This document shows, piece after piece, positions 13,101 through 16,100 of a stretch of DNA of 64,000 nt. Under the pieces are notes generated by a model. That model was not told the origin of the DNA and ran no database searches. It saw only the letters and a program-made list of their open reading frames with translations. The position numbers and the translations under genes are program-made. Source of the DNA: Patiria pectinifera (taxonomy: Eukaryota; Echinodermata; Asteroidea; Valvatida; Asterinidae). Within the stretch, counting starts at the first letter, position 1; the number at the start of each line of letters is the position of its first letter. The stretch is from the NCBI GenBank assembly GCA_029964075.1, contig CM057136.1:12028001-12092000 (forward strand), in the 5' to 3' direction.

Positions 13101-16100
13101 AAAATCATGGCACCGGGTATACTGTCATTTTCAAGAAAAGTGGTATTTTTGTTTCAATTTCCAACGCTGATCGGCCAACCAGCGTTGGAAAAAACTGGCT
13201 TTTTTTTCAAATACTGGCCCCAATTGACCATCGCACTTGTTTGCAATCGATTACACACCTATGAACGGGTACAAGCCAGCTAGACTGGTTCCCTGACCTT
13301 ACAATTCCCCAATGTATGTAAATTGCTCTGTTTCTTCTTAAATGGAGTCAGGGAACCAGACTACAGGAAAATGATTGTTTTTCTTGGTTTTTATAGCATT
13401 TTTGAACCCAAAACCTCAAAAAAGTCAGTGTAACTATATTTGCTTTATATTTCCTACCCCCCAATTCCATCCATTTCTGAAAATTACAGCAAAAGCAAAT
13501 GATGTATATTCCCTTTAAAGCCCTTTACAGTTATAAAACACTCCAGTGCCCCATATCGCTCACCGTACGCAAATTTTTATCTGGCGCACTCTTCGTGCAA
13601 CTTTTTTATGGCGCAGCACGTAGTTGCAGCTGGCAGTTTCAAATATCCGAATATTCACTCAAAAACAGTTTTGTGTAACCGATACTAAATTATTTGAATA
13701 TGGACAGCCCTAATTTCCTGGAAGATTCGATTCCAACAATTCTAAAGACGAGATGAGTTTGAAGGCTAGGCAAGTCTGGAGGAGGGAAAAAAACATTTTT
13801 TTTCCCCCCAGTTCTTCGAATTAGCATAAAGTACATCTGATCCGCATTGACTGTGAAAACTGTATGTCAGAATGATGTATATAACCATGCGCTTGACAGA
13901 ATATTCCCTCGTATCATTTGTTGGAATGAATAGCAAATTTGCACTTCTGGCTAGGGCTTTATTACTGTTTTTGTTTTGTTTTTTGCACTCGAAGGGGAGA
14001 ACGGGCGTGATGATATGCGCGTTGCTCTTACATCAAGGGAAATGCAAGACGGCCGAAGAGGCAATGGAGAAGTACGGGGAGAAGAGGACACGAGACGGAA
14101 AGGTGAGATGACTTCCCAATCTGACTCCCAAAATGAAACCTCCACGTGTCCTTAAGCTGGACGCTTTACAGTAACTTTTCTTGAATCCTCTTCTTTATTA
14201 GTCAGTGGAATATCCCATTGCACAGCAAGGGTCTATGATATGCGAGCAGATTCGGCGATTAATTATGCAAAACAAGACTGCGTCATGACCTCGAGATTCT
14301 GACCATTCAGTGGGTTCCTTGTATTACAAAAACATGGCAGCCAAAATTGACCAATCAACTGCTTAGTCCACTTTTTTATCGAAATGACGTCACAGTTTCT
14401 AAAGTCGACTCTGATTGGCTGGCGCGTGGGATTGCATAAAACTTGCATTGCTCACATGTATCAGACGCTGGTTACGTAGAGGGCTCCGTTTGACAACGGG
14501 TGATATGCAGACTACTCCTATTTTGGCCTCAACTGAGAAAAGAGAACACAGTGTGGTTAAGAAGAGTGTTTTTTAATTACTTATCCTACAGCCTAGAAGA
14601 ACGTTGTGGTACAATGAGTACCAATTCTGTGTCCTTGAGCATGAAACTTTACAGCAATAGTTGCCCTTCCTTCCCTGTCTTGGTCCATCAGAAGAAAAAT
14701 TAGATTTTTTTGTAGAGGTGATCTTGCATTCCAAGAAGCACTCATCACAAATTTAGTAACAAAGGGATCACTGTAGCACAGGAATTACAAATCCTATGTC
14801 CCTAAGCAAGCCACTTTGTCTCAATATTTTGTAACTACATGTATACACAGTCATCATGCCCCTCTTTACATGGTTGAGAATTTGACATTACACTTTTATT
14901 TCATTTTTGTATTACTTCATTTATTTTCTTTCTATACATTGCGACAGTTTTAACCATTTTTCCACTGAACAGCACGGATTTAGCACGTTTTTAGGGAAAA
15001 AAAATTGGTTTCGGAGGTTATTTTCCCCCGCGAGCTGACCAAAAAAAACCCCTTACTTTTGATTATCTTGTCGTTACACTTTGCTATATCGCATTTCACA
15101 ATCCTATTGATACACATTGATCTTCTCCAACGTTGTTCCCCTTTGAAAAGGAAAAAGCAAATCCCTATTCCCACGCTTTTTCTCCCGCTAAAACGGGTCG
15201 CTCACCTCTGAAAGATTGCAGCATTTCTCATCTGACGCGTATGAATAGTCATATTCACAGGTGCAGACTGGGATTGTCTGTGTGGGGGACTCTCATTCAG
15301 TCCTAGATAATAAAAAGGGACAAAAAGCTACATGTGAGGGAGAGCGTGCATGGTTAAAAATAGCAACAAAAGATGTGTCTAGGGGCTGGAAAGTTATTTT
15401 TAATTTCTTAAGTGTGCGTTGGTACTCGATGTGATCATCTTGATATTTCTGTCCAGTCAAGTTTAGCCTGAACGGAACGCTTACGTGCAATATTAATAAT
15501 TTAGCCATAGGCAGTTTTACTGTGTTGTATTATTTTCGGTTCAATAGTTTGTTCTGAAGATTAGATTACTGCATCATGCAGAAGATTTGAAAATCATGTG
15601 AAAGATACGTTTTTGATTATCTAGAACTTTGGCTGGAAAGTGATTAGAAAAGTGATTTTTGATGTATTTTAATTGTAAATGCCGCCATTGTCATTATTTA
15701 TGACGTAAAAAAAATTAGCTTTTAATTTTTTCGACTTTGTTGGATTCAGTAGTTAGGAGAAATTTTGTTATTTTTTACATTGCACTTTGTTTCTTCAGTT
15801 TTCTTTAGCCCCACCCTTCACAAATCCGCTAAAATCCTCTTTGCAAAATGGAGGATTTTGCAGGATTGAGGCTACATGGCAAAAGTGTGTTGCTGATTTC
15901 GGAGAATGCACTGTGTCAGGGTCTTGGACCGGACCTTGCGTTATTTATGCTCAGCAGTGCATAAATTTAGGCCTAGATTACATGTATACTTGAAATCCTC
16001 CGCACTGCTCCAGGATGGTTCTGGCTCTGCCTCAACATATTAACAGTGATTGCCGAAGGATTTTGCCGGATTGAGGCAGTGGCCACCCCTCCAAGGACCA

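Follow-up and report, generated by a model that had tools for sequence, protein, structure and literature searches.

The genome of Patiria pectinifera carries two PTEN genes in tandem on the same strand, and these differ at the column of human Tyr138: the upstream gene, copy A, has TAC (Tyr), and the downstream gene, copy B, has TTG (Leu). Copy B is an intact PTEN gene that combines Leu138 with unaltered substrate-contact residues, the sequence combination of the engineered PTEN mutant Y138L. Sequence comparison supports one of the two copies as a candidate separation-of-function enzyme.

The window, i.e. the whole stretch of DNA analysed, comprises 64,000 nucleotides (C8:12028001-12092000) of an assembly of 613.5 Mb. 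A search of the assembly for cox1 gave no match. Of two tektin exons, one is identical at 79 of 114 positions to its best PDB row, from the sea urchin entry 8snb, and the next row, a mammalian one, reaches 60 of 114, which makes an echinoderm or a related animal likely; the other exon shows the opposite, with 131.6 bits to Tektin-3 rows of other entries and 104.5 bits to 8snb, perhaps because this entry does not contain that tektin. The PTEN genes were located by tblastn in the window plus the preceding 68 kb, using a human PTEN sequence as the query; both models were built by hand from the tblastn matches, intron phases and splice sites, and are read from DNA alone. Copy A (C8:11980606-12004517) lies upstream of copy B and outside the window. 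Copy B spans C8:12014326-12056086; its exon 1 precedes the start of the window by ca. 13.6 kb, and exons 2-9 occupy window positions 4100-28086 (Table 1). Each copy has nine coding exons with open frames, encoding 393 amino acids in copy A and 394 in copy B, and all 16 introns of the two genes have GT-AG boundaries. In both, the start codon is the first ATG downstream of an in-frame stop, and the first exon leads directly into the PTEN N-terminus.

Table 1. Exons and features of PTEN copy B within the window.
Feature	Position in window	Strand	Evidence
Exon 2	4100..4184	+	human PTEN tblastn; splice sites, phase
Exon 3	7668..7712	+	tblastn; splice sites, phase
Exon 4: Asp92-His93 loop (PFDDHNPP), start of the P-loop (HCKAGK)	12622..12796	+	tblastn, PDB alignment, splice sites
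Exon 5: remaining P-loop (GRTG) onward; acceptor AAG, donor GT	13995..14102	+	frame, splice sites, six-frame scan
TTG codon encoding Leu at the column of human Tyr138; TAC (Tyr) in copy A	14022..14024	+	
Exon 6: TI loop (VTIPSQ), start of the C2 domain	18428..18628	+	exon search, PDB alignment, splice sites
Exon 7: C2 domain	25772..25873	+	tblastn, splice sites
Exon 8: C2 domain	26860..27069	+	PTEN_C2 search, tblastn, splice sites
Exon 9: acidic C-terminal tail with SPCGS, PDZ ligand ITLV, stop codon	27907..28086	+	

A preliminary description of this DNA had placed leucine at the human Tyr138 position in the PTEN of the window, and this is borne out. The TTG codon is in the open frame of exon 5, and the human PTEN sequences from PDB carry Tyr at the same column of an alignment stretch that is ungapped, so that Leu falls exactly on the Tyr138 column. 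The tblastn search over 132 kb (the window and the preceding 68 kb) yielded one P-loop exon per PTEN copy, and neither this search nor a six-frame scan of the window revealed an alternative Tyr exon for copy B. The six-frame scan showed no second P-loop exon in the window, and the sole other GRTG string there (minus strand, 16686) is unrelated. A DNA pattern for the P-loop had no matches in the window, which is the expected outcome for a P-loop interrupted by an intron.

This intron is of phase 0 and follows Lys128 in both copies (in copy B, the junction is at window positions 12796/13995). Human PTEN is not known to have an intron inside the P-loop; it shares with copy B the intron close to codons 26-27 and the one that follows codon 164. 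In the genome's loci resembling voltage-sensing phosphatases (VSPs), the P-loop intron lies one base downstream, within the Gly129 codon. The PTEN and VSP-like introns may go back to one ancient intron whose position slipped, or they may have been gained independently.

The preliminary description had spoken of the PTEN of this lineage in the singular, which was wrong in number. As a second PTEN with Tyr138 is present in the same genome, the lineage has not simply replaced residue 138. Human PTEN is a single gene. No third PTEN copy was seen genome-wide among the best candidates scored, although weak copies could escape such a search. Two exon-based genome searches gave five matches each, with the strong ones confined to copies A and B, and a search for the PTEN_C2 domain gave four exon matches, of which copies A and B account for three and a more distant locus on C2 for the fourth.

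The neighbour of copy B in the window is a gene of the NOLC1/Nopp140 type, situated tail to tail with it. Its SRP40_C domain (38517-38669, minus strand) is the only match reported in the genome. On the same strand, there is a stop-free stretch of 794 amino acids rich in serine and acidic residues (40116-42497), which had no Pfam match. NOLC1 and PTEN are both located on human chromosome 10.

The catalytic pocket is conserved in both copies. The residues contacting the substrate are Asp92, His93, Lys125, Ala126, Gly127, Lys128, Gly129, Arg130, Thr167, Ile168, and Gln171, and the catalytic residue is Cys124 (PMC4743836). All 12 are identical in copy A, copy B, and human PTEN, as is the P-loop HCKAGKGRTG with Cys124 and Arg130; copy B also retains the Asp92-His93 loop, the TI loop Thr167-Ile168, and Gln171. 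Thus, the change at residue 138 stands beside an intact pocket. By analogy within the family, the intact pocket makes it very probable that copy B is a PIP3 3-phosphatase, which would take the 3-phosphate off PIP3 at membranes.

Copy B also matches human PTEN in domain order, with a PTEN C2 domain, an acidic tail, and a C-terminal PDZ ligand. The C2 domain (PF10409) scored 108.1 bits in copy B and 106.6 bits in copy A, at a cut-off of 27.1. Both tails are acidic and contain serines; their last four residues form a class I PDZ ligand, ITRV in copy A and ITLV in copy B. Apart from Leu138 and the P-loop intron after Lys128, copy B differs from human PTEN in several respects. In the N-terminal basic PIP2-binding motif it keeps Lys13 and Arg15 and has Thr at Arg14, whereas copy A keeps all three residues. 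In the CBR3 loop, five human lysines were compared (260, 263, 266, 267, and 269), and two are kept in copy B and three in copy A. Finally, Ser-Pro-Cys-Gly-Ser of copy B is aligned to human Thr366-Pro367...Ser370; the tail alignment is poor, and Ser-Pro at the Thr366-Pro367 site is only suggestive. The changes private to copy B up to human residue 190 include R14T, Y29C, P30N, and R142Q, and those private to copy A include R161M and D162N. The latter two (C8:11999847-11999954) adjoin the TI loop, and copy B and human PTEN agree at both; the specificity of copy A may also have shifted.

The duplication is old. Copies A and B are identical at 209 of 385 positions (54%), about the level at which each matches human PTEN (215/386, 56%, for A; 205/392, 52%, for B), and this similarity of distances argues for an early origin. 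In the phosphatase domain the identity is 69% between A and B, 69% between A and human, and 66% between B and human; elsewhere A and B are 46% identical in the C2 domain and 20% in the tail. At fourfold-degenerate codons common to A and B, 39 of 81 third bases are the same, with 33% expected by chance. Within the phosphatase domain the proportion is at the chance level (17/46), and outside it the sites are not saturated (22/35). A domain identity of 69% despite fourfold sites at the chance level points to an old duplication with a constrained protein, even though fourfold sites are not fully saturated across the whole gene, and shows that selection has held the phosphatase domain. A five-sequence tree, which is too small to date the duplication, grouped A and B weakly, at 71% support, with human PTEN joining at 42%.

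The Y138L mutant was reportedly engineered by Davidson et al. in 2010. The preliminary description had portrayed it as active on PIP3 and devoid of protein phosphatase activity, and three papers agree: in vertebrate PTEN, Y138L still dephosphorylates PIP3 but is inactive on phosphopeptides (PMC13394760, PMC9599176, PMC4743836). It is reported to be inactive on the soluble headgroup as well, its defect in two cell assays is rescued by mutating Thr366, and homozygous knock-in mice die before E10.5 (PMC13394760, PMC9599176). In the mouse prostate, tumour suppression is said not to need PTEN protein phosphatase activity (PMC9599176). Human Y138L expressed in flies had ∼27% of the wild-type activity in a growth assay and lowered pAkt like the wild type (PMC8448351); in zebrafish, Y138L suppressed vessel hyperbranching, but rescue of the 4-day phenotype was not significant (PMC4743836). 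Copy B has the same residue at the same column. It differs from the engineered enzyme in being natural, in having a divergent background, and in having a sister gene with Tyr138, and the two are likened by sequence alone.

Other natural phosphatases vary at this column. C. elegans DAF-18 has Leu183 there, in a numbering that gives Cys169, Asp137, and Gly174, three residues that the abstract of PMC9157142 also names. Tyr138 is described as not conserved in DAF-18 (PMC9157142, PMC9157151), which is nevertheless reported to bind VAB-1, a receptor, and to act on it as a phosphatase (PMC3420937). Like copy B, DAF-18 is thus a natural PTEN orthologue without Tyr138; unlike copy B, it is the sole PTEN of its genome. 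Its C-terminal motif is IYL, and yet it is reported to bind a PDZ domain (PMC9157142), whereas copy B ends in ITLV. Trp occupies the column in Ci-VSP and TPTE2 (sequences from PDB) and in two VSP-like loci of the Patiria genome, and Met in a bacterial phosphatase that shares the PTEN P-loop. As the column varies in nature, Leu by itself is no proof of lost protein activity, and as DAF-18 lacks Tyr138 and is still reported to act on a protein, a lipid-only enzyme does not follow from Leu138 alone.

The bacterial phosphatase, with Met at column 138 and a P-loop identical to that of PTEN (HCKAGKGRTG), is encoded in a metagenome-assembled genome titled uncultured proteobacterium (L038:6477-6505, minus strand). 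It was the one match of the P-loop DNA pattern in prokaryote genomes; the pattern had none in viral contigs. Viral contigs (23 pattern matches) and prokaryote genomes (17 pattern matches) were also scanned with the A/B alignment, using two short peptide patterns per scan, and yielded no relatives.

Voltage-sensing phosphatases carry a voltage sensor. Their phosphatase domain is related to that of copy B, and a P-loop intron is present in the VSP-like loci of this genome too. The possibility that copy B is itself a VSP was considered, since Leu might have been common to VSPs, and rejected: the residue at column 138 is Trp in Ci-VSP, TPTE2, and both genomic loci, and PTEN is by far the better match for copy B, of which a stretch of 162 amino acids scored 230 bits with human PTEN, compared with no more than 99.5 bits with voltage-sensor phosphatases. 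The VSP hallmarks are the P-loop KGGKGR and Trp at 138, and copy B has KAGKGR and Leu. The two VSP-like loci (C7:33936601-33936693, plus strand, and C7:34152191-34152277, minus strand) are nearly identical, lie ∼215 kb apart in opposite orientation, and both carry GRTGLAVCAWLL, with Trp at the 138 column; they represent either an inverted duplication or an assembly artefact.

The preliminary description had suggested that, with Leu138, the PTEN of this lineage may be a lipid-only enzyme, or else that its protein activity depends on other residues; the second option may hold. The leucine itself and its agreement with the Y138L literature stand. The reading of a lipid-only lineage is not supported, given the Tyr138 sister copy and the absence of Tyr138 from DAF-18. 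The explanation that we prefer, and which has close to an even chance of being correct, is an old tandem duplication in which copy B would be a natural PIP3-selective Leu138 enzyme and copy A could keep dual activity. By analogy with engineered Y138L, copy B would most likely be an efficient enzyme for PIP3 in membranes and a poor one for the soluble headgroup and for phosphopeptides, its own tail included, and the Tyr138 sister could retain both activities. The enzyme activity, the division of labour, and the expression of the two copies are what we infer from the gene models and this analogy; copy B as a candidate lipid-selective enzyme is a reasonable hypothesis, about equally likely to hold or to fail. 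The effect of the leucine was measured in vertebrate PTEN and may not transfer to copy B, as only 205 of 392 residues are shared with human PTEN, and copy A may not be a plain dual enzyme because of its private R161M and D162N. The reported action of DAF-18 on VAB-1, the Trp of VSPs, and the lack of saturation at fourfold sites outside the phosphatase domain (22 of 35 the same) also count against the explanation.

The strongest alternative is that Leu138 is near-neutral in copy B, other residues set the protein activity, and both copies are dual enzymes differing in expression or localisation. We consider this quite possible, though somewhat short of even. Natural PTEN-like phosphatases tolerate Tyr, Leu, Trp, and other residues at the column, as seen in DAF-18, which lacks Tyr138 and is reported to act on VAB-1 (PMC9157142, PMC9157151, PMC3420937), in the VSPs, and in the bacterial phosphatase; moreover, A and B differ more in the C2 domain and the tail than in the phosphatase domain. 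However, in vertebrate PTEN the same change abolishes phosphopeptide activity and homozygous mice die before birth (PMC13394760), and the reduced activity of the human mutant in the fly growth assay (PMC8448351) also speaks against neutrality.

A more elaborate version of the preferred explanation seems unlikely. It holds that tandem duplication split PTEN into a dual-activity copy with Tyr138 and a lipid-selective copy with Leu138, and that the tail of the latter possibly changed in step, with Ser-Pro for Thr366-Pro, easing the dependence on self-dephosphorylation.

It is improbable that copy B is a decaying or non-catalytic paralogue in which Leu138 is one of many relaxed changes. Private changes in the phosphatase domain, R14T, Y29C, and P30N among them, are slightly more numerous in copy B than in copy A (20 vs. 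15), but the nine exons of copy B are open, its introns have GT-AG boundaries, and the catalytic residues and the PDZ ligand are kept; the relative rates do not differ either, with 40 private changes in B and 34 in A versus human over residues 1-351 (chi-square 0.49). That the Leu codon is a rare allele or a mistake in sequencing or assembly is very improbable: the codon is known from one assembly only, but a change from the TAC of copy A to TTG takes two base changes, and the exon is otherwise intact with conserved flanks.

Among the matches listed in a search of titles and abstract openings of the open-licence literature, we found no description of a natural Leu138 PTEN or of an echinoderm tandem PTEN pair. 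Zebrafish ptena and ptenb resemble copies A and B in being two PTEN genes of one genome; they are reported to be redundant in embryonic development, Ptenb has Tyr138, and the accessible part of that paper mentions no Tyr/Leu pair (PMC4743836).

The in vivo role of the protein phosphatase activity of PTEN has been tested largely through engineered Y138L, and a genome that pairs a Tyr138 PTEN with a Leu138 PTEN offers a natural test of this mutation. If Leu138 indeed marks a lipid-only copy, evolution would have separated the two activities of PTEN and kept both. If it does not, the meaning of Y138L would depend on the background in which it occurs, and care would be needed in using it outside vertebrates.
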